Part shown: one piece after another, positions 1-38,815 of the stretch
Layout of the letters: each line of letters starts with the position of its first letter
Position numbering within the stretch: position 1 is the stretch's first letter
Notes under the pieces: generated by a model
Databases searched by the model: none
The model's input: the letters and a program-made list of their open reading frames with translations, nothing else
Told to the model about the DNA's origin: nothing
Position numbers and translations under genes: made by a program
DNA from: Watersipora subatra
Lineage: Eukaryota; Bryozoa; Gymnolaemata; Cheilostomatida; Watersiporidae
Assembly (NCBI RefSeq): GCF_963576615.1
Contig: NC_088708.1
Span: 5,022,001-5,086,000, forward strand
Reading direction: 5' to 3'
DNA length: 64,000 bases

Positions 1-58
1 TGTTCATTCCTGTTGTAGCCTGTCACAGACGAATGACAATATTGTCTCCCTTTTTTAG

Positions 59-318
59 CCTATTATGAAGGCGAATGGCATATGAGATTCATTCGGCAAT
101 GCGCTAAGGAGGGTGAGTTAGACGCGACAAATCCAAGGCAGGACTGGAGTTGCTATGACAAGTTAGGAACATATAGGGTCAAGGTCAAATATTGTCATTG
201 TAGGGTGGATGGGTGTAATAGTGCTCCGACTCTTTCTTCAAAGACAATACTCCTCGGTCTACCATTTCTATTGGCCATCTTTTCGCATATAGATATAAGG
301 GGCCTTTTACCTGTCTGA
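59..318 (+). CDS. Last coding exon of a Ly6/Quiver (Sleepless)-like GPI-anchored protein
   Basis: The exon opens after a pyrimidine-rich acceptor (ttttttag at 51-58), completes a split codon with CC and runs open to TGA at 316-318. The translated part has the end of a three-finger Ly6/uPAR domain of the Quiver type: MRFIRQCAKEGE, then SCYDK, then YCHC and the closing DGCNSA motif, followed by a hydrophobic tail (TILLGLPFLLAIF) typical of a GPI signal. Quiver/Sleepless proteins sit on the outer cell surface; in flies the founder modulates potassium channels and nicotinic receptors. The signal peptide and first finger lie left of the window. The cysteine pattern and tail are seen; the family call is knowledge-based; any neuronal role is inference. 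Confidence 0.72.
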
Positions 319-3300
319 GCAGCATATGCTTTGTTCTCACACGTACACGCATGTCATATTATGACATGCGCTGCGAAATATGCGTTACATTGTGAATTCT
401 TCACATTTCAATGAACATGGTGCATTATTTGTACAGATATATTGGTACTTGGCTCTAGACTGAGAGAAGAGTTTTCGGTGTACAATCCATTTTCATTGGC
501 AAGATGAGATATTTTATAGTTTTATTCTTCCACATTCCATTCTTGTGTATAATTATTTTTATATAATGTTTGCACTGATTGATTTTATCTCTAAAACAAC
601 ATTCCATTTTGTATGTATGCCTCAGAGGACGTTCCATTTGCGAATGCTTAATTAGCACACTTTATCATCAGATGTGGCTTCAATTTTACTTTTGTACTAT
701 TGCTAGTATCTTTGAACAATTCAGGATTTATGTGTATTCTACCAGCCGTTGTATGTGCTATACATTGGCAGAAATATACGGTATACTATTAGCCATCGTT
801 TTAACTTTTCAACTTAAGAGTTTTAACAATTGCTGAGAAGCAGATTAAACTAGAAAGTGATCAAGTAGACCAATATATCAGTAATTCATACATTTGTCAT
901 AGCTGACTTGCTATTTCTCTCTGGTTCTCAAGTTTTAAACTGTTCTGTACTAATAGCTAACTATAAGTCTTCAATATCTGGAGATAGGACCAGTGCTGTA
1001 GCCATGTTGTATTCCATTGAAATAATCATTTTATGGAAAGGCGTATTTAAAATTGTTCGATCTATATAAAGTATGCAAAAAAATTTACTACTAGTAATTC
1101 ACTGAGGAAAGGTGAAAAACCATGACAGCCAATTTTGAAAAAGCATTAACGAAGTTGACCGCAAAAGTAGAATTTAATTACACAAGTCTGCAGATGCAAA
1201 TACTTCAGGTCATGCTACATTTTAATTGTTTTGTCATTAAAAATTTAAATATGATTCTGTTGAGAAATCAAAGGAACTTCGGCCTGCACATTTGTTTTCT
1301 TAAGTAATAAATCCTAATAAATTCCTAAAGTGATAGTTGTCCACTTTTGTTGTTCTGCAAATTGGAAGAGGAAATAACTCCTTGATCACCGTCCCAAATA
1401 GCTCCATGTTATGATTTAATATAAAGAATCGAGCTAGGTCAATGTACACACGATGAGCTAGCGAACTAGAGTTATTTTGCATAGGATGTAAGGAACCATT
1501 ATGCCCGGTGTTAATATACATGTTACTTGTAGTTGTTTATTTTTGGTTGTTACAAACGAAGAGTTTGTATCATATGCTAGTATATCGTTTCAGTTTTAAT
1601 CCAAAGAAATAGAAAGGGTCTCAAAGTGTATATCAAATGTTTGTTGAACATTCACATATTGGCTAAAAGTTTCGTTTCACTTACACATTTTGATAAAATT
1701 TCATGTTTCCGTTTTTATTAAAAAAAAACTAACTTTTGAGGTTGAATTGACAATGCTAAAACAATGTTATAAAATTTTAAAACTATGATTATACAATATT
1801 CGCGTGATAAAATTTTAAAGAAGCTATACATGAGTTAGCTCTGTCTATTACTTATTGTGTAGCTGCGTTTCGTGATTGGTATGCATGGATATTTGTTAGA
1901 AAGTTGTGAGCGAGATCTACTCATGTCTAAATGCTTGAAGTCAAAAGGAAGTTTTGCATAACTGTGAACATAGCAGAGTTTCATTCGTATTTGCTCTATA
2001 TTTCTTAGTTAACTAAAATTGCAATGAAAAAAGTTACAATGTAACAACATATAACAAGTAGCCTACAATTCAGTAAAAATATTCTTCATTTTTTACTGCT
2101 TTGCTGTTTATTTGGTTATATGCTGAGCTGTACATTACAATGTTGTATGACAGATGTTGTTGGGTAGGCGTTTAGCATGTTATTGTATGTTTGTGAACAA
2201 CGGCCCACTTTTTCTATGGTGCTTATTCCACTTGCGTAAATTCACATGATTTGTAGAGTTACATCTTCTGTCTGTAGACGGTTAAAAAAATTCCAAGCTC
2301 ATTTCTGTAGATTGTTAAAATTGGCAAGCTTACTGGTTAATAAAATTGGTCTGTCTTTATATATTCTCTCAATTTTTTTGCCTTTTTTTTAGTTTACGCA
2401 TCTTGGTAAATTCTTGTTGGAAAAACTTACTGCTCATATGCAGACTTCTAGCTTTTCAGGTCTGGTGAATGTTGTAGTTATCACGCTTTTATGATCAGCT
2501 CGGTGCAGTTTTGACTATGAATTACTAATGAAATAAGTACACTGTTCTTTGCATGTTGCTATATCATTTTTGCACCGCTCCACATTAGCACTATTTGAAG
2601 TCATCTTCTCGTTACATCACACTTGTTCAATTTTGTTTGGCTCCCCAATCAGCTTTGTTGCGCTTTTCAACATGTTTGATGGTATTGTGACAGATAAAAT
2701 CTCGTGCTGCTGCTGCTTGCTACTCCCACATTGTTATTGTTGCATTCTTAGGTAGTCTTGGATTAAGACAACACTGATATGTACTCTGAGTATCTTTTGT
2801 GCTTTCCAACAATTAATGCTTCAGGGCAAAAAGATAAAAAAGGGCACATTAGGGCCTTTCTCTGGTCATGCTCCACTCACCTATTTTAATATTATACCGT
2901 TTACTATTTATATGTTTGTGTACTTACATAGACAAAATCTCCCTTCATTTTTAGACAATATATATAATGTTGGTGTAATCAGCAAACTGGATTTCACTCA
3001 TACTAGTTCATGCTCGATAAGGGTCATGGTCATTTTGAATCTCACTCTCACAGCAGCTCATTGGTCTGTTGGAGCCAGCGTTGATAGGATTGTAATGAGT
3101 TGCATCTGGTTTACGGCAAAAGTCTACAAGTTTTCGTTATCTAAGGTGACTTATGCGCTATAGTCAGTAAGCTCTGCAAAAATCAGGGCGTCGAAGAAAT
3201 GAATATGTATTTCACTCAGTAGAAGATTAGTTGCGCTATAAGGGATCACAATACCAGCAGCTGCAGAAAGCGAGCTTAAATAACAGCCAGAGTTCTCTGT

Positions 3301-4320
3301 CCTTACTGCAAATGGTAGAATGCTGCCCAGCTTACACAGTAGTACCATGTTGCTTAACAAGCTATTATAATTTATCCAGTTTGTAAAAAGTTGTAGAGTC
3401 GGAGTTGCTTGCTTTCTGTGAAGCGCCACTAATCCTAATAAGTTACAGAAATTATATCTCTTAGATTCTATCAGAATATCTCATACTAACTCAATGTAAA
3501 CGTTATAACAATATTTTTGCTGTAACGAAATTAAGACTTAAAATTGAGACTTTACAACAAAGAGTTTTTAACAAAATTATTTTTGTTAAAAACAAAATAT
3601 AGTTTTTGCTGTTTTGCTTTAGTTGTATTTTATCAATGAGTGATGTTTTAATCCGAATCTACAAGGATCTGGGGGAAATTCCCATCTCATGAACAAGTGT
3701 GTGTACAACTCAGCTGTTATTGACCTGTTGAGCTAGACTACTACAATGACAGACAGTTCACGCTGTACGTTGCGTTTAACTCTGTTAAAGTTGCGGTGAC
3801 ATGTATGCCATTGAAAAGTTATGATCACATATATGCATACAGTAGCATTGCAGGGCCTTATTGTGACAACTTAATCTTAGCATTAGTCTAAACACTATGT
3901 ATAGTTTGTATAGGTCAAGGTTAACAAAGGTACAATAGTATGGGAAAGTTAGTCGATGCTAAATATTTGTGGTTGTATCACACAACCGCGTATGCCAGTT
4001 TATGCAGTAGTGAGAACTGGTAGATTGAAGATAAATTTGTTGGGCAGCTGCAGTCAACATGTTTTCTTACTTGCTGAAGCCACTTCTATATTCTATATTG
4101 ACAAGAGTCTAGAATACTTGAGAGCAAAATTAAAACTACGTATAATATTCTCCCGCAGAAAGAACTTTTTTACAACGTTTTAGCTTTTAAATATTAACAC
4201 CTGCTGGTGTATGCCTACTTATATAGTGTTACTACTTGCTGGGCGATGCATGTCTTGGTTCTCGTATCTTTTTTTCAAACAAAAAATGTATTGAGTTATA
4301 TATTTTAATGTAACTGTCTA
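319..4320. other. Intergenic, no supported gene
   Basis: AT-rich sequence between the Ly6-like exon and the SLBP gene. It has only short, unconvincing open frames; it may hold the 3' UTR of the Ly6-like gene and the unseen first exon of SLBP, but I could not identify either. One copy of a dispersed repeat lies at about 1560-1686. Confidence 0.5.
1560..1686 (+). repeat. Dispersed repeat, copy 1
   Basis: About 125 bp that recur in direct orientation at 4722-4842. Shared blocks include atatgctagtat, then tatatcaaatgtttgttgaa and a following cacata-tggcta block, with scattered substitutions. Class unknown; probably a fragment of an old mobile element. Confidence 0.6.
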
Positions 4321-4329
4321 CTAAACTGA

Positions 4330-4420
4330 GTTGGAGCTATTGCGGCCTAGTCCGCCTATAGCCCTTGAACAGCAGGTTGGGGTTTGATTCCCGTAAAGCC
4401 CATTGGAATGACAAAAGAGG
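4330..4420 (+). repeat. tRNA-like head of a probable SINE
   Basis: A box-A-like stretch (ggcctagtccg) is followed at tRNA-like spacing by a box-B-like ggtttgattcc. The flanks do not clearly fold as a functional tRNA, so a tRNA-derived SINE head is more likely. The element's 3' end is not resolved. Confidence 0.45.
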
Positions 4421-4721
4421 TATCTACCTTAAATTGCTTCCACTTTGAATTCAATTTCCCTCTGCCAGAAAATGAAGACGTGGCAACATTTGAGACACTC
4501 AAGCTAATCACTGACTTCTCAAGAGTGATATTTCATATGTATTAGTGTTACCAGCCCTCTGATGTAGAGATCATTAAAGCGGGAGAAGCGCTTGGTTAAT
4601 GCAAAGACCTACTAAACATGGTGTCATATTTTGTCAAGTTATAAATTTGTTTCTTCAGCGTTGTCAGTCACAACAGGTGCTTGCATAAACTAGAAAACTC
4701 TGCCAATCAGGTTCTGTAACA

Positions 4722-4842
4722 GAGTCTACTATATGCTAGTATTTCGTTTTAGCTTTAGTCTAAAGAAATAATAATGGTCTCCAAGTGTATATCAAATGTT
4801 TGTTGAACATCCACATAGTGGCTACAAGTTTCTTTTCACTTG
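4722..4842 (+). repeat. Dispersed repeat, copy 2
   Basis: Second copy of the repeat at 1560-1686, same strand, diverged by substitutions and small indels. No terminal repeats or target duplication recognised. Confidence 0.6.
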
Positions 4843-5271
4843 AAATTCTTGACCATTACTGATCTGTGTTATCCTTACATGCATTAACATTTGCTTCTTT
4901 GTTTATAACACTTTTTTGGCAATAATGATTATCACAAAGTAATGCTGACAATCGCTCAATCTGACAATCGCTCAATCTAACTGTTACATGCTGCCATCAT
5001 TAAAAAGCACTATAAAAAGCTGAAAAAATCTTCACGGTATTTATCTGTTTGCAATTGGTAGCCTCACTCTGGGTGTCTGAGAGCAAAATGTATAAACACA
5101 GAAGATACAGCGAATCAAGAAGAGGAAGAGATGTCCCCTTTTTGGTAGGACACATTTTCCTTGTTGGATTACAGTTGTTTTGTCGTACACTTGTGTGTTT
5201 TGCATTGAGAGGATTTTCCTGAATTTTCAATTTTCTTTTCAACTACAAATGTTACATGTCTCTGACTGCAG

Positions 5272-5337
5272 CAAGAAAAGACTCGAAGAACCCGAAGTAG
5301 GTCACCCCTGCTTCGTAACAAAAACGGCTTGTCACAG
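5272..5337 (+). CDS. SLBP: SLBP candidate exon (first one visible)
   Basis: Acceptor ctctgactgcag and consensus donor CACAG|gtaagt bound 66 bp, phase 0 to 0, coding a basic, arginine/serine-rich segment beginning [12 protein letters not shown]. It has no ATG, so at least one upstream exon is missing. Such basic low-complexity sequence suits the disordered SLBP N-terminal half, but assignment to this gene rests on splice sites and phase only. Confidence 0.5.
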
Positions 5338-8300
5338 GTAAGTTTTCACTTGCATATTGTGTAATTGCATATTTATGCAGTTTTCTATTGCGTATTTCAA
5401 TGTATTGCCGTTCTGTATATGTGCTAATGACTGACTTATTGTATATGCAATTTAAGATTTTGATAAAAAGTTCTTCAGCAAAACATCAAATAAGATAGCA
5501 TTCAATCATAGTTGCACTGGCATCTAGTTAATAATTTAGTGGTTGCTTATGCGCTTGTCAGTGAAAGAATGAGAGAAATCAATTGCATAATCAGCCACTA
5601 GAAATCCACTACAAGTCACAATTTGACGTCCCCCTTTATTCTCTTCATATTTATCTAAACCTTTGTGACTGATGATTACTAGTCTATCCTAACCCCACTA
5701 CACTAATATCATTTATTCACATCAGTTCAAGCTTTTTCTAAGGGCTCGATAGTTTGTGAACTGGTGTCTCTGGTAGTTATATCGTAGTTACTACTGTAGA
5801 GGGAATACGGAAGAAGCGAATGTACAGGTGGACTCATGGATATTATGTCTCCAGAGGTGAGCTCTTATAAAAATGATTAAAGAGATCGACATGCCTGTCA
5901 ATTTTCAATTTCGCTTTCACTGCTTTGTCAGTTCTATCATTTGTAATATGGTGATTTCAGCTTTTTCGAATTCTGTTGAGTCATATCTGTACGTGATAGT
6001 CTAGATGGCGTCTTTATACAGCGGTTAGATGCACAGCAGATTTAGCAAACTTACCCATTGTAGGTTCGGGTTCGTAGTCACCGTTTAGACAATCGCCGGT
6101 GTTTGAACCATCTAGGGGATGCAGATGCTAGACACCGTATCAACTTTCGTGAGTCTCAACCCTCACCATCTGTTTACAAGCATGCCTCTATGATTTGCAT
6201 GGACTATGAGTGTAAAAGGATGGATTGTCGAGGTGAGGATGGGGTACAGAGCATAGCGCAGAGGCTAGGCCATACTGCTGAGGCTCAGCTATTTGAGGCT
6301 AGACAAGATGAAACGCAAAGCGCAATCGCTGGTTCGAGCCGAGTCAGCTCCAGCTCTGCTTCTCACTTGGAGTCCTTACAGGCTACTGCTGCAGAGATAA
6401 TGAGGTAAAGCTCATAGTTGATCTCTTCCTTCATTCCATACCCTGTGGCTATTTCTTTTGATTGATGTTATTATGACCTCTGCTCATCTTTGCTGACATG
6501 TTATAATAGCTTCTGGTCATATTTGCTGGTAGATATGATAGTCTCTGGTCACCCCTTCTGATATAGATGTTATATTAACCTCTGGTCATCCCTTCTGATA
6601 TAGGTGTTATGATAGCCTCTGGTCATCTCTTCTGATATAGGTGTTATAATACCCTCTGGTTAGCCTGGGCATGGCTCTGGTGGGGATTGGGAGAGAGAGT
6701 CTGGGACACATAGCGAAAAAAAGATAAGATAACTTCTGCAAAACGAGCGACATATGTTACATATGACGCTCAGACTGATACTAATGAAAGCGTGTCGATA
6801 GATTCAGGTCTCACGATGTATTAAATGTGGCGCGTTTAAATGCCTATCGTCACGGTAAAGTGACTTGATCTAGTGAAAGGCCCTATGTTTTTGATAGACT
6901 GGGCAGTTATGTAATACCCCGTTTGATAACAGAATGATAAGAACCATAGGTTACTATTCTCTTGCGTTTTCACGTTTGCAGTTTCATTTCATATACTGAT
7001 AAAAAATGTAGCGATTCAAAATTCATCTATCAAAGTTAGGCATAGTCACGCTGAGACTAAAACAGTCTCAAGCTTTACAACATATTATCGCAGGTTTTGA
7101 CTAATTTATAGTTCGTCCTACTGGCTTCGGAAAGAGTATTTGCTTTCAGATGGCACCGTTTTGCAGTGGTAGGTCCGAGTTGTTCATAATAATTGTCGCG
7201 AGTAATCACAATACTCGCGAGTAAAATAAAACTGAGATTACTTTTTACTAGGTAAACTTTTTTTATTAGCAGCGTGCGATTCATTTTTGTAGTTCTATTG
7301 CTATTCGTTTGTATTGTTATTGTGAAAATCTTTTATTCAATTGATTTAATTTTAGATTATAATTAAATCAAAACCTAATTAATTAAACATATGAAATAAT
7401 ATAACTCCCGTGATTGATTTATTATGCAACCAACATTTCATACTTCCAACCAGCGTTTGTTTGCTGTCAATTTAGATTAAAAATAATACACAATACTCGC
7501 GAAGATCATAAAAAAGACCGTCACATGATACTCCTTCGGAAATAACGATTTTGATATTAGCGACTGCAAAAGTCGACTTTTAGAGTTGTTTTCCTCGCGT
7601 GTTGCTATGTGTCCCAGGCTCTCTCTCCCAATCCCCCACGAGAGCTATGCCCAGGCTACCCTCTGGTCATCTCTTCTGATATAACTGTTATGTTAGCCTC
7701 TGGTCACTCCTACTGATATAGGTGTTATGATAGCCTCTGGTCATCCCTTCTGATATAGGTGTTATGTTAGCCTCTGGTCATCCCTTCTGATATAGGTATT
7801 ATGTTAGCCTCTGGTCATCCCTTCCGATAGAATTTATGATGATCTTCAGTCATTTATTCTGCTGTTATGCTAGCTTTTGATGCATATATACTGTAAATAT
7901 GTTGATTGCGTACTGTGAAAAACTTGATTGTTCAGGTTACAGCATTCTGCGAGGATGGACCAAATAAGAATTTACAAAGATTCTAAAGACTATAAAGTAT
8001 TTGATGAACATTTTCCAAAGTAAGTTCGTTAAGATTGGCGCTTGGATATCCAGTCAACAGTAGTCCCACGACCAAACACGAGCGAAGCGATTGCTTGGGA
8101 GCTTTTTGATAAATGCATATGCGCACACAACTCCTGAAAAATTAACCATCAACTGCCATTACCAAACCCTTGTACCGAAATCCCACCAAAAAGTTTAACC
8201 ATTTTTGTGTAGAGTCGTTTAAGTATAATAATGATACAAAACACATATAAACATATTTAAATATGTTACCAAGTCTTTAAAAAGTTGACGCAATATCCTA

Positions 8301-11300
8301 AAACTAACCCATCTGACCAGATTATACATAGATAGACAGATTAATTTGGCCAAAAATCGCAATAAAAACTTGAGAAGCCTCTTTTAATCAAAATTAGGAC
8401 CCGCCAACGAAACGCCGATAAGGCCGTGCAACAGAAAGTAGAATCATTAAGTCGTGTGCATTTCACGAGAAAAACGTGCACATTTCACCAGTCTATGGCA
8501 TTGTCCAATTGCTGAAGGTTTCTGTAATTAATGTAGAAGTACTGAAAAGTAATCGTTTCTTTTTTGCCGATTCTACCGGACTCTGACATTTTGGACAACT
8601 ATAATGAGTACTTTGGTATTTCAACTGATGTCCAAAGCAGTGAAAGTAAAGGAAATGACGATGATATTTTTCTAACGATTCTTATAAAATTATTACAATA
8701 TTTAATTGTATGAATAATTATTCGATTTTATAAGATTATTATGAGATTTAGTTATAAGAATAATCATTCGAATTTACAAGATCTTATTTGTACTATATAT
8801 GCAAGTTAGATTAGTTATATCTAAAAAATTATGCTGAATTTAAAAATCTAAACAGATTTTAGCTGGTTGTCATAGAAATAGATGTGTATCTATAAGAAAA
8901 TGTAGGCCTATTACTTAATTTTGCAGATATTAAAAACGGCTTGGCAGTACCGCGATATTGGGCACAGCCGCAGTCTCATCAACGAAATCTTAAAAAAAAT
9001 AATAACAGTAACATATTGCACACCATCGGTCACTATATACTTCGATCTTGTAAATTAATTAATCTGTCTATTTATATATAATCTGATCAGATGGGTTAGT
9101 TTTAGGATCTTGCGTCAGCTTTTCAGAGACTTGGTATCATATTTAAATATGTTTATATGTGTTTTGTATCATTATTATACTTAAACGACTACACAAAAAT
9201 GGTTAAATTTTTTGATGGGATTTTGGTACAAAGGTTTGGTAATCGGCGTTAAGAGATAACTTTTTGGGAGTTGTGTGCTCATATACATTTATCATAAAGC
9301 TCCCAAACAATCGCTTCGCTCGTGTTTGGTCGTGGGAATACAGAAATCTAGATAAATATCACAACTTCTTGATATTGGTTGCTATGACCAACGATATACA
9401 GCCCCCAGCCTGTGTATATTACACAGCAGCTTGCCATTTTACTTCTAATATTGCATTTCTCCAAGTGCAGGGAGAGATATAAGCGTATAATCTTTTCCTT
9501 TCATTATTTCTGTTTGTTGTACATAATAACTCCCAGTACATTACAGCTACCATTGCAGCTACCATTGCAGTTCTCCTATTGCACTGCAGTGCCATTTGAC
9601 TGTTATATTGCATTTCTCAACCGGCAGTACCCTTTCTTTTTCCATTATCACTTTGGTCGTGGGCTGTATGACAGGGGAATTTCTAGTAAAAATATACTGA
9701 ATGATTATTATTCATTTCATGGTCTTACAGTCTTTAGATCTTGTTTTGCAGCAAGCCCTTAAAGGTTGTTAAGCCCATGTAAGGTCTGTCGTATATGAGC
9801 TTTTGATTCTATTTGTATTTATATACAAAAATTGTAAAAGGTTGTAACCACACTACTTCATTTTATGTTCTCCTCCATTTCTGATTTGTTCCATTGAATT
9901 GAAGGAGAGACTACAGTAAATTTAACACTTGGCTATTTCTATTTTAAATGGCTACTTTTTAAACTTATAGAGCTCTTGTTTGATTCACAAAATCACATGT
10001 CATGGTCTTGGATACTATGGATATCATAACTTGTAACACCTCACAAATGTCTCAAATTCTTTGAAAAATAATGTAATCATTCAAATGACCATAATGCCTA
10101 GGGTCATTCACACTTGACATTGACTTACTGAAATACCTGTAAAAGGTAGCTTAAAGTCTTAAATACATAGGCTATCTTTCACAACTACAATTATGTTAAT
10201 CACTAGTTGGTAGCATCTTTGACTGTCAACCATGGGGTTGGTGGTTTGAGCGCTGCTAAATGCCGATCCGACAACAAGCTTTCAATCCTAAATTGCTGGG
10301 TTGTTCGGATCTAGACCATAGCTTGGAGGCCTAGTGTGCCACACTGACAACGTGGGCATGTTAAAGATCCACCTCTGTCCTTTGCACATTGGGCAAGTGA
10401 AATGGCTACCTGGCTCTGTCAGACTGGACATGTTGCAAAATGCATCCCTTCGGGTTAATCTGACAGTTCTAGAAGAAGCTCTTGATAAGTGTTAAGACCA
10501 CCAAGGTAGCTTATAAAAAGCTAGTCTTGGCGGTGTGTTTCTCTACTAGAACATGAGAACACTACCAAGCATTGTCACCACATGACAAAAGCATGCCATT
10601 ATGTATGTTGTCAAGTAGGTATATCTAATTACACTCCTGTTAGTTACTAATGGATGACTATCTTATCAAGTGAGTATATCTATTTACACTCCTGTTAGTT
10701 ACTAGTAGATGACTATCTTATCAAGTAAGTATATCTAATTACACTCCTGTTAGTTACTAGTAGATGACTATCTTATTAAATAAGTGTATCTAATTACACT
10801 CCTGTTAGTTATTAGTAGATGACTATCTTATCAAGTAAGCATATCTATTTACACTCCTGTTGGTTACTAGTAGATGACTATCTTATCAAGTAAGTACATC
10901 TAATTACACTCATGTTAGTTACTAGTAGATGACTATCTTATCAAGTAAGTATATTGATTTGCACTCCTATTAGTTTTTAGTAGATGACTATCTTATCAAA
11001 TAAGTATATTTATTTACACTTCTGTTAGTTATTAGTAGATGACTATCTTAATAAGTAAGTATATTTAATTACACTCCTGTTAGTTACTAGTAGATGACTA
11101 TCTTATCAAGTAAGTATATCTAATTACACTCCTGTTAGTTACTAGTAGATGACTATCTTATCAAGTAAGTATATCTAATTACACACCTGTTAGCTACTAG
11201 TAGATGACTATCTTATCAAGTAAGTATATCAAATTACACTCCTGTTAGTTACTAGTAGATGACTATCTTATCTAGTAAGTATATCTAATTACACTCCTGT

Positions 11301-14300
11301 TAGTTACTAGTAGATGACTATCTTATCAAGTAAGTGTGTCTAATTACACTCCTGTTAGTTATTAGTAGATGACTATCTTATCAAGTAAGTATATCTAATT
11401 ACACTCCTGTTAGTTACTAGTAGATGACTATCTTATCAAGTAAGTATATCTAATTACACACCTGTTAGCTACTAGTAGATGACTATCTTATCAAGTAAGT
11501 ATATCAAATTACACTCCTGTTAGTTACTAGTAGATGACTATCTTATCTAGTAAGTATATCTAATTACACTCCTGTTAGTTATTAGTAGATGACTATCTTA
11601 TCAAGTAAGTATATCTAATTACACTCCTGTTAGTTACTAGTAGATGACTATCTTATCAAGTAAGTATATCTAATTACACTCCTGTTAGTTACTAGTAGAT
11701 GACTATCTTATCAAGTAAGTATATCTAATTACACTCCTGTTAGTTACTAGTAGATGACTATCTTATCAAGTAAGTATATCTAATTACACTCCTGTTAGCT
11801 ACTAGTAGATGACTATCTTATCAAGTAAGTATATCAAATTACACTCCTGTTAGTTACTAGTAGATGACTATCTTATCAAGTAAGTGTGTCTAATTACACT
11901 CCTGTTAGTTATTAGTAGATGATTATCTTATCAAGTAAGTGTATCTAATTACACTCCTGTTAGTTATTAGTAGATGACTATCTTATCAAGTAAGTATATC
12001 TAATTACGCTTATCCCAGTTATTAGGTGTCATCTGGGTGTATATGCACTGTGATTGATGCACTTGCGCACACGCACATTATTAGGTCAATTGAAGCAAAC
12101 AGATTAGTTTCTACTGGTATTTTTGCCATATGTTTCTTTCTGAATTTTGAAGGTTGCCAAAATCAAGTTTTCGACATTACAATTATATGAGTTTTAACGA
12201 TATTTCATCGTTACCTTTTTCAATAAATGTTGCGGCACACTTTCATCAACTTTTATCATATACAAACAGACATTTTTTGCTAAGTACCTGGATGTCACAA
12301 AATTTGAATAGACAGGTTTTGCGTGTTAGCGTTTCATGCTGGTGTACAGTTGGAGCTTGGCTGCTCTTTATCTCCTTGCTCTATTTATTATTCACTGAGG
12401 CAACGATTCCTAAATTCACAAAATGCAACTAAGATGCTTTGAAGCACTACTATGCTATGAATGCTAACTAGTGTTTTCAGTAACTGTGCATAAATTTTAG
12501 ATGACATGCCACAGTCATCAACACACTTTCTATACTTCATGTACATGCTACACTTAGTATACGCTTTCTATGGTGCATGTACATGATACACCCAGTATAC
12601 ACTTTTAGAGTGCAATTACATGCTACACCCAGTATACACTTTCTATAGTGTTTGTACATGCTACACCCAGTATATACTTTCTATGGTGCGTGTACATGCT
12701 ACACCCAGCATGCATGTAGATCGGTCTATGGCTGCATTTAACGAGCTATGCATAATGTTTCAGTGTTCTTTCTTGTCTGAGAGACGGTCCTCACCCTTGA
12801 GAATGTAACCTCAGCTTTCTTACCTGCATTAGCTGCTTCAGAAGCTAGATAATGATAATGACTTTAGCCTGCACTATTTATTCATCTGTCAAGCAATGGC
12901 TCAGCTTATCATAGCTCTATGTAGACATCGCTGGCATTGCATATCACTGGAACAAAAGCAATTACTGTGTTTTGGTGTGGGAGCATTTTTTCACTGACAA
13001 ACCTACAATTTCGCTTTTGAGTTATGTCACCATGACATCTAGCTGATTGCTTGTCAGACAATAAACTAGTCTACCGACTAATGCACTATAATTAAATGAG
13101 AGTATTGTGTGCAAACAATAAAATATTACATACATCATTTAAACAGAGATCCACCCACGCAAAATTCATACACTATCGAAATAGTTGGTGATCCAGAACA
13201 CGAAATACCATTTGAAAGCTATATTGGCCAAATGATCCAAATGCCGAACTGATCGGTTACCCATCACACCAGAATTATTTTAAAAACTTTATAATTATGC
13301 AGTTTGTGCTGTCACAGATGAGCTAGTTGTTTTCAATGATTTCAAGTGAATCTTCATAATTTCACAGGCATAACAAAAGGTATGAGAGACCGCCAACACC
13401 AGATCAGATGAGCATTCCGCCCTCTCAATGGATGGCCAAGTTTAACCAATGGAAAGCTGATGTAGCCGAAATCCTAGAAAAGTAATTATTACTCCACTCT
13501 CCCTTTTTTACACGTTTGTTAGGAGACCTGTTTTGGCTGTGAACATTTTTTTAGAGAATATTGCTGGCATTGTTAGATAACATACATCTCCAGAATTATT
13601 CAATTAGATTCACTGTAAACTTTGCTTCTACCGTGCCACACCTCACTGTAGTTATTCGTTACAGCGCCACACCTCACTGTAATAATTCATTACAGTGCCA
13701 CACCTCACTGTAGTAATTCGTTACAGCGCCACACCTCACTGTAATAATTCATTGCAGCACCACACCTCACTGGAGTAATTCATTACAGCGCCACACCTCA
13801 CTGTAATAATTCATTGCAGCGCCACACCTCACTGCAGTAATTCATTACAGTGCCACACCTCACTGTAATAATTCATTACAGCGCCACACCTCACTGCAGT
13901 AATTCATTACAGCGCCACACCTCACTGTAATAATTCATTACAGCGCCACACCTCACTAGTAATTCATTACAGCGCCACACCTCACTGTAATAATTCATTG
14001 CAGCGCCACACCTCACTGCAGTAATTCATTACAGCGCCACACCTTACTGTAATAATTCATTGCAGCGCCACACCTCACTGCAGTAATTCATTACAGCGCC
14101 ACACCTCGCTGTAATAATTCATTACAGCGACACATCTCACTGTAGTACTTCAATACAGCTCTAACCCTCTCTGTAGTACAGTGCACCCCTCCATGCGGCA
14201 AGAATTTGTTCCGTCGTTAGCATCATAAGGCGAGAATGTCGTATAGAGAGGTGTAGAAACCCATAGCAATATCTAATGCTCACATCCCTGAGTAAAAAAC

Positions 14301-16142
14301 ATCAAAATTTTATATACGTACTGTACATATTAAAAAATGGATAACAAAACACAGCAGATGCTCTTACAACGTAACTAATCCGTTCCAGGAACGTTTGCGC
14401 AGCAGCTGTTTTTTGTTTTGTCGACGCATATAATGATTTACCACGACGAAATAGAATGTCGCGAAAGTTGTATATATAATAGGTATAGCTTTACACGCGC
14501 GTCGTTTTTCTCTCGCGCAAGTGCGGCAAGATTGATTAACATTCAAATCGAATTTGAGAACTCGCCCGACTTGACACTTTACGTTACGTGGAATTTTTTA
14601 CGTAGCAAAAACTTCACATAAGTTCTTTACATTATCTGGAATTTACGTTATAGAATGTATACGTCATAGGAGCGTCTACTGTAGTCTATTAACCTTAGTA
14701 ACATAGTTACCTACAGTAACCTTCGTGTATTTAGTAGTTATGATCTGCAATAAAAGGTAACATTATTATTACAGTACTTACCGTGTGGGGCTATTACCTT
14801 CGAGACAGACACATAACATAAATGTTGAATTTAACTTAAATGAATTTAGCTTACTAAACACACACTTGAAGCTGAGTTTTAGTATGTATTTTACTAAACT
14901 AAACTTTAATTTTGTCATTGTCTTAATCTTTATTACCTGTTTCCTGTTTCGCTTCCACCATAACTTGAGACGGATAATGCTGAACTGAGAGTGAGCGAGC
15001 ATTGTATATCTTTCAGGCGTTGTGGGAGGGAATAATTTCTTTTAGGCATTGTGGGAGGGATTGCCGCGAATAGCATATCGGCATCTTCATTATTTCGACG
15101 TATTCATCACACTGTCTGCCAAATTTGAATTTTGAGAGTCATTTTGGTTAATGTCGTACGGCAAAAAAATGTTTTATGGAAGAGACAAAAAACCGTTGTG
15201 TTCTCACCTCAGCATCTCGCCTCGACACCTCGCCTCGACACCTCGCCTCGGCATCTCGCTTCATTATGCCATCTCAGTTCGCTGCCTCAGTCATTCACTA
15301 CAGCACCTCATGGCAGCTCTTCTTGGTAGTACCTCACATCAATATCTCACCGCAGCACCTCAATAAACTTCATTACAATGCCTCACCGATGCATACGCTG
15401 ATACTCAATAAAAAAGTGTAATATTGCTCATATAATAGCACAAATGCCAATGGATTCTTATGTGGGCCATGATTCTCTAATGCACTCTGAATAGCCTTTT
15501 TCTGGTTACAAATTAGGGTAGCAGAGTTTTACTTTAATTAATAAACATGACTGTCCTGTTTTAAAATGAACTCTTTCCTGCATTGGTCTACTTTGCATGT
15601 TGCTGGCCCATTATGAATAGTAATTACATCTAGACACTGTAAGTAGTTTTGTGGTTAGTGTTTGCATGCAGATGATACACGCAAGCAATCCTCCATGAAT
15701 GTATTCTAAATTGTTTTTTTAACGACTGTCTAGGGCTGTTGACTCGCTAATCGTGACATTCAGAGTAATTCATTGTGTTGCTGTGGTGCTGGCAGCTGTG
15801 CAGCTGATGGTACTAGCTACTCATAGCCTGTGCTCTTTGTTTTGGTCGTAGTTAGAAAGTTAAAGTAACAGCAGTTTATCATCCAGTTACGAGTTATCGT
15901 AAACCACTTTCCATTTTATGCTTATTCTAAAAGATACATCTTCCTCTATCTGATGTAGTCTTAGTATTCTTATTATAAACTCATATCTTACATTATTCCT
16001 ACACATAATTGATTTCTAGCAAGCTTGCATATATGTATCTATTATAGAGGCATATCATGTGGGTAGCATGCATATAAATAATTTACAATTTACATAATAT
16101 GTAAAGTGTCATATTCTCACCCATTTTACCTCGATTTTTCAC

Positions 16143-16180
<38 letters not shown>

Positions 16181-19100
16181 TGTATATAAATATGTATATA
16201 CATATATATACACATATATGTATATAAATATGTAAATACGTATATATATACATGTATATACATTTGTATACATGTATATATATGTATATATATACATTTT
16301 ATCTCCATCCATACCAAGTTCGATAGACACATAGAAAGCTATAGATTTTATAGTTGGATAGATAGATACACATAGATACATGGATGGATAGATACATAGA
16401 TGAACAGATAGATGTATAAGTAGACAGTCAGATGGGTAGATACGTAGATATGTAGATATGGCATATTCCTAGGAAAAGCTAATATCTTCAGGCGGCTGTT
16501 GCTATTCCAAGGTTTTTCTAGAAAACCTGAATTTGAGTGGTTTTGTTGCAACTTGCGGTTAAGAGAGGTAGGAATCCATCATATATGTATACCGTGTACG
16601 TGTATATACATAGGATATAAATAAGACAGCTGCTTCTGATAATAATAGGAAGAAGATCAAGTCGCGTGTCGTAGAGAATGATGAGGAGACTCTGATGAGG
16701 AGACAGAAGAATATCGACTATTGTAAGAGCACCGAAGCTTACCATCAGTATCTCACACTTATTCCCAAGTATGTTCATACCATCAGTATCTCACACTCAT
16801 TCCCAAGTATGTTCATACCATCAGTATCTTACACTCATTCCCAAGTATGTTCACACCATCAGTATCTCACACTCATTTCCAAGTATGATCATACCATCAG
16901 TATCTTACACTCATTCCCAAGTATGTTCATACCATCAGTATCTCACACTCATTCCCAAATATGTTCACACCATCAGTATCTCACACTCATTCCCAAGTAT
17001 GTTCATACCATCAGTATCTCACACTCATTCCCAAGTATGTTCACACCATCAGTATCTTACACTCATTCCCAAGTATTTTCACACCATCAGTATCTCACAC
17101 TCATTCCCAAGTATGTTCTCACCATCAGTATCTCACACTCATTCCCAAGTATGTTCCTACCTTCAGTATCTCACACTCATTCCCAAGTATGTTCACACCA
17201 TCAGTATCTCACACTCATTCCCAAGTATGTTCATACCATCAGTATCTCACACTCATTCCCAAGTATGTTCACACCATCAGTATCTCACACTCATTCCCAA
17301 GTATGTTCATACCATCAGTATCTCACACTCATTCCCAAGTATGTTCTCACCATCAGTATCTCACACTCATTCCCAAGTATGTTCCTACCTTCAGTATCTC
17401 ACACTCATTCCCAAGTATGTTCACACCATCAGTATCTCACACTCATTCCCAAGTATGTTCATACCATCAGTATCTCACACTCATTCCCAAGTATGTTCAC
17501 ACCATCAGTAACTCACACTCGTTCCCAAGTATGTTCATACCATCAGTATCTTACACTCATTCCCAAGTATTTTCACACCATCAGTATCTCACACTTATTC
17601 CCAAGTATGTTCATACCATCAGTATCTCACACTCATTCCCAAGTATGTTCACACCATCAGTATCTTACACTCATTCCCAAGTATTTTCACACCATCAGTA
17701 TCTCACACTCATTCCCAAGTATTTTCACACCATCAGTATCTCACACTCATTCCCAAGTATGTTCACACCATCAGTATCTTACACTCATTCCCAAGTATTT
17801 TCACACCATCAGTATCTCACACTTATTCCCAAGTATGTTCATACCATCAGTATCTCACACTCATTCCCAAGTATGTTCACACCATCAGTATCTTACACTC
17901 ATTCCCAAGTATTTTCACACCATCAGTATCTCAAACTTATTCCCAAGTATGTTCATACCATCAGTATCTCACACTCATTCCCAAGTATGTTCACACCATC
18001 AGTATCTTACACTCATTCCCAAGTATTTTCACACCATCAGTATCTCACACTTATTCCCAAGTATGTTCATACCATCAGTATCTCACACTCATTCCCAAGT
18101 ATGTTCACACCATCAGTATCTCACACTCATTCCCAAGTATGTTCCTACCTTCAGTATCTCACACTCATTCCCAAGTATGTTCACACCATCAGTAACTCAC
18201 ACTCGTTCCCAAGTATGTTCATACCATCAGTATCTCACACTCATTCCCAAGTATGTTCATACCATCAGTATCTCACACTCATTCCCAAATATGTTCACAC
18301 CATCAGTATCTCACACTCATTCCCAAGTATGTTCATACCATCAGTATCTCACACTCATTCCCAAGTATGTTCTCACCATCAGTATCTCACACTCATTCCC
18401 AAGTATGTTCCTACCTTCAGTATCTCACACTCATTCCCAAGTATGTTCACACCATCAGTATCTCACACTCATTCCCAAGTATTTTCACACCATCAGTATC
18501 TCACACTTATTCCCAAGTATGTTCATACCATCAGTATCTCACACTCATTCCCAAGTATGTTCATACCATCAGTATCTCACACTCATTCCCAAGTATGTTC
18601 ATACCATCAGTATCTCACACTCATTCCCAAGTATGTTCATACCATCAGTAACTCACACTCGTTCCCAAGTATGTTCATACCATCAGTATCTCACACTTAT
18701 TCCCAAGTATGTTCATACCATCAGTATCTCACACTCATTCCCAAGTATGTTCACACCATCAGTATCTTACACTCATTCCCAAGTATTTTCACACCATCAG
18801 TATCTCACACTTATTCCCAAGTATGTTCATACCTTCAGTATCTCACACTCATTCCCAAGTATGTTGACACCATCAGTATCTCACACTCATTCCCAAGTAT
18901 GTTCATACCATCAGTAACTCACACTCGTTCCCAAGTATGTTGACACCATCAGTATCTTACACTCATTCCCAAGTATTTTCACACCATCAGTATCTCACAC
19001 TCATTCCCAAGTATGTTCTCACCATCAGTATCTCACACTCATTCCCAAGTATGTTCCTACCTTCAGTATCTCACACTCATTCCCAAGTATGTTCACACCA

Positions 19101-21716
19101 TCAGTATCTCACACTCATTCCCAAGTATGTTCATACCATCAGTATCTCACACTCATTCCCAAGTATGTTCACACCATCAGTATCTCACACTCATTCCCAA
19201 GTATGTTCATACCATCAGTAACTCACACTCGTTCCCAAGTATGTTCATACCATCAGTATCTCCCACTCATTCCCAAGTATGTTCATACCATCAGTATCTC
19301 ACACTCATTCCCAAATATGTTCACACCATCAGTATCTCACACTCATTCCCAAATATGTTCACACCATCAGTATCTCACACTCATTCCCAAGTATGTTCAT
19401 ACCATCAGTATCTCACACTCATTCCCAAGTATGTTCACACCATCAGTATCTCACACTCATTCCCAAGTATGTTCCTACCTTCAGTATCTCAGACTCATTC
19501 CCAAGTATGTTCACACCATCAGTATCTCACACTCATTCCCAAGTATGTTCACACCATCAGTATCTCACACTCATTCCCAAGTATGTTCACACTATCAGTA
19601 TCTTACACTCATTCCCAAGTATTTTCACACCATCAGTATCTCATACTTATTCCCAAGTATGTTCATACCATCAGTATCTCACACTCATTCCCAAGTATGA
19701 TCATACCATCAGTATCTCACACTTCTTCCCAAGTATGTTCTTACCATCAGTATCTCACACTCATTCCCAAGTATGTTCACACCATCAGTATCTCACACTT
19801 ATTCCCAAGTATGTTCATACCTTCAGTATCTCACACTTATTCCCAAGTATGGTCATACCTTCAGTATCTCACACTCATTCCCAAGTATGATCATACCATC
19901 AGTATCTCACACTCATTCCCAAGTATGTTCATACCTTCAGTATCTCAGACTCATTCCCAAGTATGTTTATACCATCAGTATCTCACACTTATTCCCAAGT
20001 ATGTTCATACCATCAGTATCTCACACTCATTCCCAAGTATGATCATACCATCAGTATCTCACACTTATTCCCAAGTATGTTCTTACCATCAGTATCTCAC
20101 ACTCATTCCCAAGTATGTTCACACCATCAGTATCTCACACTCATTCCCAAGTATGTTCATACCATCAGTATCTCACACTCATTCCCAAGTATGTTCACAC
20201 CATCAGTATCTCACACTCATTCCCAAGTATGTTCATACCTTCAGTATCTCACACTCATTCCCAAGTATGTTTATACCTTCAGTGTCTCACACTTATTCCC
20301 AAGTATGTTTATGTTTTTTATTCTGCTTTGATTTAAAGCAACTTAAACAGAATAGTGATTCAGTTCAACCTCACTTGCTATTTGAAGTCTTCATATGCTG
20401 TCGAAATAAATAAGTCTAGATTTGTTATTTCTCTAAGTAGCAAAGTGGGTGCTCAAACTATTCAGCTACATGCTAAGCAGTCATCTTGGCTATAGCTTTG
20501 CTGAAGGCTTCCTAAAGCCTGATTCCCATATATGCAGCAAGTACTGGTGGCAGGATTGCAGGGATACTTGCACTGAAATGGGAACTTACGCGCCGAGTAC
20601 TGTCAGGAGTTGCCGGCGGTCAACACAAGAGCTCAGCGCTGTTTGACTTTTGCCAGGATCCGCAGGCAAAACCTTCTCGAAATGCACTGTAAAGGTGAAG
20701 GTCAGCACTTTCAAAACGGCATGATGAAGAGCCATTTTTATGTGATCGTTAGCTACGCAGTTTTATGTGAACATAAAGTCTGGTTCCCATCTCGCTTGCA
20801 AGACCACGGCGGTAACTTGCGCAGCAAAACGCTTGCGACGCTAGGCTCAGTGGCGTCTGTTCACATATAAAGCTGCATCGCAAAACATAATCGCATATTA
20901 ACTTAAAAGTTCGCTCGCCATGCCGTTTCGATAATGGTGACATTCACCTGTACATTGCATTTCAGGAAGGTTTTTCCTGCGGCTTTTCGCGAAACTTGAA
21001 CAGCGCTAAACTCTTGCGTTGACCACGGGCAACTACTGACGATATTCGGCGGTACATGGCGTATAGGTTCACATTTCACCGCCATAGCCTGCGGTGCTGT
21101 TGCTGGTGCTTTGTGGCGCATATGGGAACCAGGCTTAAGCTGTCGAGCCTAGCACCGCAAGTGCTTTGCTGTGTAAGATTACCGCTGGGGGCTCGTAGCC
21201 GACCTAGAAACCACGCTTTATTCACTGGTGTTGCGCGAACCAGTGACATAAGACTGCTCTGTGTTTGACTGGTCGGTGGAGTCTCATTTGTCTCAATCAA
21301 CGCATGATGAATTGCATGATGAGTTGCTAGTATTGCCATAGCTTACCAAACTGATTATTCATAGTAATGCTGGCTATAGTTTCATAGCTTTTCCGTTTCT
21401 TCACATTTTTCTGTGACAGTCATGAGGACATTTTTTTCCATTGCTAGGCATTCTTGTAGCTTGGCAACAGTTTGAACAGGCTGAAGTACATTAATGAACC
21501 AGCATAAACCAGCTGGTCTGAAGCCTCGTCAAACCACATCAGATGTAGCTACAATGTATTCAAAAAATTTTATGTAGATCTAAAAGACAAAGGAGAGATC
21601 CAAGAACACCTGACAAGTTTGCAATATACAGTCGGAGAGCCTGGGATGGCTGCGTTAAGTCTTGGAAGTTGCGAATTCACAGGCGCTTGGAAGAGTTCAC
21701 AAAAAGTGATAGCTAA
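5272..21716 (+). CDS. SLBP: Histone RNA hairpin-binding protein (stem-loop binding protein), 5'-incomplete gene model
   Basis: Proposed coding exons: 5272-5337, 5800-5856, 6064-6404, 7936-8019, 13368-13481, 16649-16768, 21578-21716; 306 residues from the first visible codon to TAA at 21714-21716. All junction phases agree. SLBP binds the 3' stem-loop of replication-dependent histone mRNAs and directs their processing, export and translation. The RNA-binding domain spans exons 6-7: [20 protein letters not shown], then RTPDKF and YSRRAWDG, matching the family signature (RRQKQI-YGKNT, Y--Y, TPNK, YSRRSWD). YGKNT reads YCKST and SRRSW reads SRRAW here. The protein ends 13 residues after the WK of the domain, shorter than in vertebrates. 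Exon 5 carries a pre-domain RPPTPD segment. The first coding exon was not found. Introns are full of minisatellites; the 38-bp array begins inside exon 6. Confidence 0.85.
5800..5856 (+). CDS. SLBP: SLBP candidate exon
   Basis: 57 bp between acceptor ttactactgtag and donor CCAGAG|gtgagc, phase 0 to 0, starting [11 protein letters not shown]. It joins in frame to the exons on either side. No domain recognised. Confidence 0.45.
6064..6404 (+). CDS. SLBP: SLBP candidate exon, disordered N-terminal region
   Basis: Acceptor acccattgtag, phase 0 entry, 113 codons plus AG, donor ATGAG|gtaaag. It codes an SLBP-compatible disordered segment with a serine-rich stretch ([14 protein letters not shown]) near its end. 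Alternative acceptors at 6091 or 6116 would not keep phase with the previous exon. Confidence 0.5.
6475..7880 (+). repeat. 37-bp minisatellite split by an inserted TIR element
   Basis: Imperfect units of about 37 bp (ctctggtcatcccttctgat, then ataggtgttatgatagc) occur on both sides of the insertion, at about 6475-6660 and 7659-7880, within the SLBP intron after exon 3. Confidence 0.75.
6661..7658. mobile_element. Non-autonomous TIR transposon with 9-bp target duplication
   Basis: A 998-bp insert with about 55-bp terminal inverted repeats: both ends read TAGCCTGGGCAT inward and stay matched through GGGAGAGAGAG to GGGACACATAGC. It is flanked by identical CCCTCTGGT at 6652-6660 and 7659-7667, a 9-bp duplication as made by Mutator-like and some other superfamilies. 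Part of the flanking motif also occurs in each array unit, but the exact repeat at both borders supports insertion. No transposase frame; several ctcgcgag-type palindromes inside. Confidence 0.75.
7936..8019 (+). CDS. SLBP: SLBP candidate exon
   Basis: Acceptor cttgattgttcag, donor CCAAA|gtaagt; 84 bp entering in phase 2 (AG|G) and leaving in phase 2 (AA). Contains [14 protein letters not shown] and DEHFPK. In-frame with its neighbours; no domain recognised on its own. Confidence 0.55.
8064..9686 (+). mobile_element. Helitron-like dispersed element, copy 1
   Basis: Begins TCCCACGACCAAAC and ends TTTCTAG followed by T; a second copy with the same ends lies at 58106-59183. The first about 275 bp reappear inverted at about 9060-9337, so most of the element can fold back; a tail of about 350 bp (9338-9686) follows and repeats the motif TTTGGTCGTGGG. 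The 5'-TC and 3'-CTAG ends fit Helitron-type elements, but the long inverted arms are unusual and no replicase is present. Lies in the SLBP intron after exon 4. Confidence 0.6.
10195..10530 (+). repeat. Probable tRNA-derived SINE
   Basis: A tRNA-like head (ctagttggtagcatct, then ggtggtttgagcgc) is followed by a body containing gggcatgttaaagatcc, a type of block seen in invertebrate SINE bodies. Ends and target duplication not resolved. Confidence 0.4.
10612..12008 (+). repeat. 55-bp minisatellite, about 25 units
   Basis: Units of 55 bp with few substitutions run through the SLBP intron between exons 4 and 5. Most units carry TATCAAGTAAGTATATC, which is close to a perfect 5' splice site (CAA|GTAAGTAT), and TTACTAG, an acceptor-like ending. 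Larger blocks of units recur in the same variant order, indicating multi-unit duplication. Confidence 0.9.
12528..12713 (+). repeat. Short 38-bp tandem array, about 5 units
   Basis: Degenerate units built on gtacatgctacacccagtat followed by acactttctatggtg. Unrelated in sequence to the 38-bp SLBP-exon array despite equal length. Confidence 0.75.
13368..13481 (+). CDS. SLBP: SLBP exon upstream of the RNA-binding domain
   Basis: Acceptor cataatttcacag; donor GAAAA|gtaatt; 114 bp, phase 2 in and out. Codes [11 protein letters not shown] and [13 protein letters not shown]. SLBPs commonly carry a proline/TP motif and a tryptophan-containing conserved patch just before the RNA-binding domain, so position and content suit SLBP. 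The match to that region is by memory of the family, not alignment. Confidence 0.7.
13628..14160 (+). repeat. 31-bp minisatellite with 62-bp higher-order dimer, about 17 units
   Basis: Units begin cagcgccacacctcactg and alternate between gtaataattcattg/a and gcagtaattcatta endings, so the true higher-order period is mostly 62 bp. Located just after SLBP exon 5. Confidence 0.85.
14179..14681. mobile_element. Candidate Tc1/mariner-type MITE
   Basis: About 500 bp with imperfect inverted ends, CAGTGCACCCCTCCATG against CAGTAGACGCTCCTATG, each preceded by TA. It sits at the end of the 31-bp array. TIR identity is moderate, so this is tentative. Confidence 0.45.
15205..15258 (+). repeat. Short 13-bp tandem repeat
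   Basis: Three to four copies of ctcgcctcgacac with one or two changes, in the SLBP intron before exon 6. Confidence 0.6.
16141..16465 (+). repeat. AT-rich and GATA-type microsatellites
   Basis: From about 16141 to 16300 the sequence is (TA)n with tatgtatata/atacatatat variants; from about 16340 to 16465 it becomes gatagata/acatagata repeats. Open frames here are artefacts of the simple repeat. Confidence 0.9.
16649..16768 (+). CDS. SLBP: SLBP exon with first half of RNA-binding domain
   Basis: Codes [18 protein letters not shown], then [12 protein letters not shown], the clear first half of the SLBP RNA-binding domain. The donor is CCCAA|gtatgt at 16768/16769. The chosen acceptor (ctgataataatag, 16648) keeps phase 2 with the previous exon; the tag at 16608-16610 or the aag ending at 16624 would not. 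The last 28 bases of this exon plus the donor are the first unit of the 38-bp array, so the exon's 3' end is repeated 94 times downstream. Confidence 0.88.
16741..20312 (+). repeat. 38-bp minisatellite of 94 units derived from an SLBP exon-intron boundary
   Basis: Unit: accatcagtatctcacact then cattcccaagtatgttca. Start-to-start distance from the first unit (16741) to the last (20275) is exactly 93 x 38 bp, so there is no net indel. Unit 1 is coding SLBP exon 6 sequence and includes its 5' splice site. Variants recur in blocks (gtattt donors, AAATATG units that destroy the donor, cagtaactc units, ccttcag units), showing multi-unit duplication. 38 bp shifts frame each unit, so the period in protein is 114 bp/38 residues. 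The SLBP frame stays open to TAA at 18915-18917. Substitutions fall at the same unit position regardless of frame, so the array is not evolving as protein. Confidence 0.97.
20516..21135. mobile_element. Harbinger-like MITE with TAA target duplication
   Basis: 620 bp with ends AGCCTGATTCCCATAT and (inverted) AGCCTGGTTCCCATAT, flanked by TAA at 20513-20515 and 21136-21138. A 3-bp TAA/TTA duplication is characteristic of PIF/Harbinger. The arms remain related for more than 150 bp inward (gccggcggtcaac against gcccgtggtcaac), so it can form a large foldback. A further end-like ctggttcccatct at about 20780 suggests a nested or rearranged copy. Lies in the last SLBP intron. Confidence 0.65.
21578..21716 (+). 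CDS. SLBP: SLBP terminal coding exon, second half of RNA-binding domain
   Basis: Acceptor aaaaaattttatgtag; the first base A completes the Lys codon split by the exon 6 donor (AA|A). It codes [24 protein letters not shown] and ends EEFTKSDS at TAA 21714-21716. TPDK is the equivalent of the phosphorylated TPNK motif, and YSRRxWD is the hallmark of the family. The intron before this exon is about 4.8 kb, three quarters of it the 38-bp array. Confidence 0.92.
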
Positions 21717-21821: not shown

Positions 21822-21827
21822 AATAAA
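21822..21827 (+). terminator. Polyadenylation signal for SLBP
   Basis: AATAAA 106 bp after the SLBP stop codon, the first canonical signal downstream. Confidence 0.6.
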
Positions 21828-37061: not shown

Positions 37062-38815
37062 CAAATACATACTATAATAGTATGTATTTACTAAAGTATG
37101 GTCCATACTAAAGTATGGTCCATACTAAAGTATGGTCCATACTTTAGTCCATATGGTCCATGGTCCATACTAAAGTATGGTCCATACTAAAGTATGGTCC
37201 ATACTAAAGTATGGTCCATACTAAAGTATGGTTCATACTAAAGTATGGTCCATACTAAAGCATGGACCATACTAAAGTAAGGACCATACTAAAGTAAGGA
37301 CCATACTAAAGTATGGTCCATACTAAAGTATGGTCCATACTAAAGTAAGGACCATACTAAAGTAAGGACCATACTAAAGTATGGTCCATACTAAAGTATG
37401 GTTCATACTAAAGTATGGTTCATACTAAAGTATGGTTCATACTAAAGTATGGACCATACTAAAGTAAGGACCATACTAAAGTATGGACCATACTAAAGTA
37501 TGGACCATACTAAAGCATGGACCATACTAAAGTAAGGATCATACTAAAGTAAGGACCATACTAAAGTATGGTCCATACTAAAGTATGGTCCATACTAAAG
37601 TAAGGACCATACTAAAGTAAGGACCATACTAAAGTATGGTCCATACTAAAGTATGGTCCATACTAAAGTATGGTTCATACTAAAGTATGGACCATACTAA
37701 AGTATGGACCATACTAAAGTAAGGACCATACTAAAGTATGGTCCATACTAAAGTATGGTCCATACTAAAGTATGGTCCATACTAAAGTATGGTCCATACT
37801 AAAGTAAGGACCATACTAAAGTATGGTCCATACTAAAGTATGGTCCATACTAAAGTATGGTCCATACTAAAGTATGGTCCATACTAAAGTATGGTCCATA
37901 CTAAAGTATGGTCCATACTAAAGTATGGTCCATACTAAAGTATGGTCCATACTAAAGTATGGTCCATACTAAAGTATGGTCCATACTAAAGTATGGTTCA
38001 TACTAAAGTATGGACCATACTAAAGTAAGGACCATACTAAAGTAAGGACCATACTAAAGTAAGGACCATACTAAAGTAAGGACCATACTAAAGTAAGGAC
38101 CATACTAAAGTAAGGACCATACTAAAGTATGGTCCATACTAAAGTATGGTCCATACTAAAGTAAGGACCATACTAAAGTATGGTCCATACTAAAGTATGG
38201 TCCATACTAAAGTATGGTTCATACTAAAGTATGGACCATACTAAAGTATGGACCATACTAAAGTATGGACCATACTAAAGTAAGGACCATACTAAAGTAA
38301 GGACCATACTAAAGTATGGTCCATACTAAAGTATGGTCCATACTAAAGTATGGTCCATACTAAAGTAAGGACCATACTAAAGTATGGTCCATACTAAAGT
38401 ATGGTCCATACTAAAGTATGGTCCATACTAAAGTATGGTCCATACTAAAGTATGGTCCATACTAAAGTATGGTCCATACTAAAGTATGGTCCATACTAAA
38501 GTATGGTCCATACTAAAGTATGGTTCATACTAAAGTATGGACCATACTAAAGTAAGGACCATACTAAAGTAAGGACCATACTAAAGTAAGGACCATACTA
38601 AAGTAAGGACCATACTAAAGTATGGACCATACTAAAGTATGGTCCATACTAAAGTATGGTCCATACTAAAGTATGGTCCTTACTTTAGTATGGTCCATAC
38701 TAAAGTATGGACCATACTAAAGTATGGTCCATACTAATGTATGGTCCATACTTTAGTATGATTCATACTAAAGTATGGTCCATACTAAAGTATGGTCTTG
38801 CTACGTATAGTAGCA
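37062..38815. repeat. 17-bp palindromic minisatellite, about 100 units, bordered by hairpins
   Basis: Unit tccatactaaagtatgg is almost self-complementary (CCATACT-AA-AGTATGG). Variants tatggtcc, tatggttc, tatggacc and taaggacc recur in the same block order. Unit orientation flips near 37137-37150, 38677-38692 and 38748-38760 (ttt in place of aaa). The left edge is a palindrome, atacatactat/atagtatgtat (37064-37088); the right edge is a perfect 11-bp hairpin, ggtcttgctac/gtagcaagacc (38787-38813). Confidence 0.95.

Follow-up and report, generated by a model that had tools for sequence, protein, structure and literature searches.

The SLBP Locus and Its Array

The window, as the whole 64-kb stretch of DNA that was analysed is called here, comes from the bryozoan Watersipora subatra, whose assembly tzWatSuba1.1 (GCA_963576615.1) is given as 783.70 Mb in 11 chromosomes in the accessible part of the genome report (PMC12902671). 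An RNA-seq run (ERR11641139), HiFi read sets (ERR11458812 and ERR11458813), an alternate haplotype (GCA_963576605.1) and an Ensembl annotation of 16,835 genes are available for the species. The SLBP stretch corresponds to about 5,038,600-5,043,720 on chromosome 1, the longest scaffold, which is designated C1. Two coding exons of an SLBP gene were recognised on its plus strand, and the intron between them opens with a long minisatellite. The exon preceding the array, the putative exon 6 of the preliminary description, lies at 16649..16768 (+) by the match of the joined exons to PF15247, the alignment with PDB chains and the translation, and it includes two nucleotides of its last codon; its 5′ edge is either 16630 or 16649, as the frame is kept by an AG before either position. 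The 3′ coding exon, placed at 21578..21716 (+) by translation, Pfam and PDB alignment, ends in TKSDS with the stop TAA at 21714-21716. It is probably the terminal exon, and an AATAAA was spotted by eye at 21822-21827. The intron of 16769..21577 (+), which is defined by the exon joins and whose position is shared by a paralogue on C4 (see below), consists of minisatellite over about three quarters of its length.

The minisatellite occupies 16740..20311 (+) and comprises 94 head-to-tail units of 38 bp with zero indels, and the mean identity to the consensus is 96.1% when the units are cut in register. The call by TRF was 16740-20309 with a period of 38, 93.9 copies, 93% matches, 0% indels and a score of 6181. 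The preliminary description had placed 94 units without net indel at 16741..20312, which is the same array offset by one base, and the TRF call and the register cut agree with it. The first unit (16740..16777, +) is composed of the last 29 nt of the coding exon and 9 nt of the intron, and departs from the consensus at only one of 38 positions, a synonymous one in the coding part. The units fall into 32 distinct sequences among the 94, and units 93 and 94 at the 3′ edge, which carry TTTA, are similar to the flank GTATGTTTATG. A search of the own genome with a 360-bp probe from the array gave at least 16 matches, every one within the SLBP array; the count is a lower bound because the search passes over very common words.

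A GT stands at the donor position in 90 of the 94 units. The donor word is GTATGT in 74 units, GTATTT in 11, GTATGA in four and GTATGG in one, while the remaining four read ATATGT (that is, AAATATG) and have no GT. The counts of 74, 11 and four thus bear out the earlier statement that the hexamer is mostly kept, that some units have GTATTT and that a few have AAATATG.

Further repeats were seen in the window. Within the SLBP intron, the stretch 20512-21139 is element-like, with inverted arms of 29 nt (outer, 79%) and 133 nt (inner, 80%), and could be a non-autonomous DNA transposon. At 10604-12007 there is an array of 25.5 copies of 55 bp whose unit contains a good donor word, CAAGTAAGT, and no exon was recognised beside it. 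Five more long minisatellites were called by TRF within the 64 kb (13635-14178, 37089-38797, 40636-42613, 44550-45301 and 59949-60381), and in the ones starting at 44550 and 59949 both strands carry long open frames.

The Donor of the First Unit

When unit 1 is spliced in silico from its donor AA|GTATGT to 21578, the product is the SLBP RNA-binding domain PF15247 with an E value of 2.8e-23. The joined exons score 82.2 bits, compared with a cut-off of 27, and cover profile positions 2-67 of 70. Chains of solved SLBP–RNA structures also match the joined peptide, 4tux being the best PDB chain (E 2e-19) and 4l8r following with E 7.4e-17, and the alignment is ungapped across the junction. Since the joined product is the SLBP RNA-binding domain, the GTATGT of unit 1 (16769..16774, +) is the donor that yields the normal protein, and we take it as the working 5′ splice site. 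The proposals that the array is an amplified exon–intron boundary of an SLBP gene and that its first donor restores the RNA-binding domain are therefore upheld by the Pfam match and by the gapless alignment with 4tux. In the same alignments, the part of the domain that unit 1 codes for is conserved.

The stretches 1-9002 and 8995-16796 were scanned with Pfam in their three plus frames; besides the SLBP exon, the sole match was to a DEAD-box helicase at about 7063-7161 (+), a weak one whose score of 17.7 bits (E 0.0031) is under the cut-off of 26. No RNA structure signal was obtained for the exon end with the first units (z −0.70), and the search of the window against Rfam at gathering scores returned 0 matches.

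A Second SLBP Gene

The joined SLBP peptide was found at six places in the own genome, namely the two exons of the window, two exons on C4 and two places at chance level. The latter are weak matches at 28.53 Mb of C1 and were set aside as chance (E about 0.8). The C4 exons belong to a second SLBP gene at 7381357-7383881 on the minus strand, and they are 50% and 58% identical to the window peptide. Its intron lies at the same residue and in the same phase as that of the window gene, with an exon end of CCTAG|GTCTGTG. TRF over 20 kb of the C4 locus detected other arrays but none at this donor. Because the paralogue shares the intron without the array, either the intron is the older of the two or the C4 gene has lost its array. 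A minisatellite of 23 copies of 17 bp was noticed shortly after the next C4 SLBP exon (TRF 6910-7300 in L015).

The C4 domain scores higher than the window copy both with PF15247 (98.5 versus 82.2 bits) and with human SLBP 4l8r (92.1 versus 64.1 bits). As this second gene is closer to human SLBP, the window copy is possibly not the essential SLBP, and its earlier designation as an essential histone-mRNA gene is put in question.

What the Later Donors Could Do

The 89 other units that bear a GT are, from their sequence, equivalent or weaker candidate donors that could compete with unit 1. The earlier expectation that every third donor keeps the frame and adds 38 residues per three units agrees with our count of 19 in-frame GT donors that reach the native stop (units 1, 4 ... 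55). The observation that the SLBP frame stays open to 18917 was likewise reproduced (16614-18917), but it is uninformative: the consensus unit contains no TAA, TAG or TGA in any frame, as do 12.4% of 20,000 shuffled units, and because such a unit is stop-free in any frame the long open frame is no evidence.

The strength of the unit donor is moderate. Duplex energies with the 5′ end of U1 were −4.0 kcal/mol for the unit donor, −3.4 for GTATTT, +0.7 for the form without GT and −14.0 for the full consensus. The donor of unit 1 agrees with the consensus at seven of nine positions, a level reached by 3.2% of 3029 other plus-strand GTs in the window, and 19.4% of these background GTs pair with U1 as well as the unit donor does. 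Where 5′ splice sites are strong and equal, splicing can favour the intron-proximal one; at the SLBP array such a preference would be disastrous.

In three comparisons among the 94 units, neither the donors nor the codons nor the frame showed any sign of being preserved, although the tests are small and the units non-independent. Four variant types fall in the nine donor columns versus 18 in the other 29, and 19 of the 38 equally sized circular windows vary just as little. Of the 14 codon variants in the exon-derived part, two are synonymous and 12 are not; the possible changes divide 18:63 in the same way (P 0.72). Seven of 15 weak or broken donors belong to the in-frame class, which makes up 32 of the 94 units, so there is no frame bias (P 0.37). 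The retention of GT in 90 of 94 units would also suit selection or simple homogenisation.

Tandem Donors Elsewhere in the Genome

Minisatellites, counted from a period of 9 or more and three copies or more, are common in the Watersipora subatra genome and make up 4.9% of the 203 kb sampled around 60 matched exons (30 kinase, 30 DEAD-box). A donor inside an array was found at one of 80 exon 3′ ends (95% interval 0.03-6.8%), where the 80 comprise these 60 exons and 20 further kinase exons, one stretch being only 266 bases long, some ends having no intron and two strand assignments being unconfirmed by stop counts. Because arrays cover about 5% of such DNA, one in 80 is no excess over chance placement.

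The single case, L027 (L027:2015-2327; region of C4:13425722-13426204), is a kinase exon (PF00069, E 2.7e-39) that ends in RHTFVG and is followed by seven units of 45 bp with donor-like starts, GTGAGT in five, GTGAGA in one and GTGGGT in one. As at SLBP, the intron opens with tandem units each bearing a donor; unlike the SLBP array, it starts at the intron GT and its unit has no obvious exon sequence. At L087, a 21-bp array lies immediately past the donor, and its unit has no donor. As a flag for exon-edge arrays, long open frames surrounding a short exon match were also tried; the two flagged places that were read, L098 and L099, had no such array.

Genome-wide counts of tandem words were made as well. 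Three AGGTRAGT in tandem (gaps 8-38) gave 5923 matches versus 585 for the reversed word, but this apparent enrichment is too uncertain to be claimed, as the shuffled word GATRGAGT gave 5049 and its reverse 1713. The word of the array, CAAGTATGT, gave 513 matches in tandem versus 538 reversed. Among the matches listed for the initial 3.5 Mb of C1, there were nine clusters of AGGTRAGT, three of GATRGAGT and 0 of TGARTGGA. No excess of donor score was found among 65 arrays sampled from 314 kb, of which the window was part: 11 units reached a score of 6 or more compared with nine when reversed and 9.4 ± 2.9 in shuffles.

We consider it doubtful that introns opening with tandem 5′ splice sites (94 at SLBP, seven at the kinase and others) form a recurring class in this minisatellite-rich bryozoan genome. 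If they did, the genome would offer a ready-made collection of identical donors in competition, and one could read from it directly how a 5′ splice site is chosen and how minisatellites arise at the edges of exons.

Origin of the Array and Alternative Readings

The array is probably a minisatellite that was born by duplication across the exon–intron junction and is largely neutral, with unit 1 as the working donor and the later units as potential decoys. As its anatomy suggests, a 38-bp segment made up of the SLBP exon end and 9 nt from the start of the intron would have been tandemly duplicated, and the duplicate would have expanded by ordinary minisatellite processes to 94 copies inside the intron. 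Because the exon edge sits in unit 1, the coding sequence and the donor of the gene are kept, and splicing from unit 1 to 21578 should give normal SLBP, as judged by protein homology. Exon definition would be expected to favour the first donor, and the few that follow would be used rarely, in line with what is reported for IFI6. The mechanism appears plausible and is partly borne out by the identity of the units and by the intron common to the paralogue, while the direction from exon to array is suggested by the conservation of the domain.

A different reading is that SLBP is regulated by its donor array: several units would be spliced appreciably, and the resulting 38-residue insertions or frameshifts would reduce the amount of active SLBP. 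Such a device would be in keeping with 90 GT donors, of which 19 hold the frame as far as the native stop and bring no new one, early frameshifted units would have their stop in the last exon, where mRNA decay would not be expected, and two downstream units are used in IFI6 isoforms in the accessible part of that work (PMC4526556). We nevertheless regard regulation as unlikely, as the insertions would land inside the conserved domain, the donor is moderate (−4.0 compared with −14.0 kcal/mol) and equalled by a fifth of background GTs (19.4% of 3029), and donors, codons and frame are without sign of selection. The array looks neutral rather than a device.

Less likely still is that the many weak donors jointly recruit U1 and so strengthen the first donor or block premature polyadenylation of the long intron. 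U1-complementary words are indeed dense in the array and the L027 kinase intron likewise opens with seven donors, but tandem consensus donor words show no clear enrichment in the genome or in the 65 sampled arrays. That the length of the array is an assembly artefact is hardly credible. Near-identical long arrays are hard to assemble; this one, however, has units that have diverged into 32 distinct sequences, and the accessible part of the genome report describes a HiFi assembly of QV 63.2, with a mean read length, computed from its figures, of about 6 kb, which exceeds the 3.6-kb array (PMC12902671). Birth across the junction followed by largely neutral expansion is thus the reading that we prefer.

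Comparison with Known Systems

A minisatellite that supplies several splice donors was reportedly described by Turri, Cuin and Porter in 1995 (NAR 23:1854) in human IFI6 (6-16, G1P3), and that array is said to consist of 26 units of 12 nt. Besides IFI6, we know of no other splice-donor minisatellite. Searches of the open-licence literature by title and the start of the abstract found no further ones, and those of the bryozoan minisatellite literature, made in the same way, found nothing on splice-donor arrays. The impression in the preliminary description that such a minisatellite had not been described must accordingly give way to the human example of 1995, as far as the accessible parts of the IFI6 literature go.

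In IFI6 transcripts, downstream units of the minisatellite serve as alternative donors according to the accessible part of the report (PMC4526556). Such use is thus demonstrated in IFI6, whereas at the SLBP array the later units are candidate donors. Both minisatellites, within the same limits of the IFI6 source, start at an exon end and have a unit that carries a 5′ splice site; at SLBP, the unit has the GT in 90 of 94 copies, and the array sets in where a coding exon ends, unit 1 holding the last 29 nt of that exon. Unlike IFI6, the SLBP array has 94 units of 38 nt, includes 29 nt of conserved coding exon per unit and lies in a bryozoan SLBP gene. Tandem duplication of DNA with splice signals, as at SLBP, is also found as a source of intron gain or altered exons in the accessible parts of studies on potato RdRp (PMC4974935) and Drosophila (PMC2891723); in those cases one duplication creates a new intron, whereas at SLBP an existing intron has received 94 copies.

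Because the IFI6 case is already published, the SLBP array is best regarded as a much larger new example of a known oddity. It provides an instance of a minisatellite that probably arose across a splice junction, here in a histone-mRNA machinery gene, and its ninety near-identical donors before one acceptor amount to a natural experiment on 5′ splice-site choice at a scale beyond that of IFI6.
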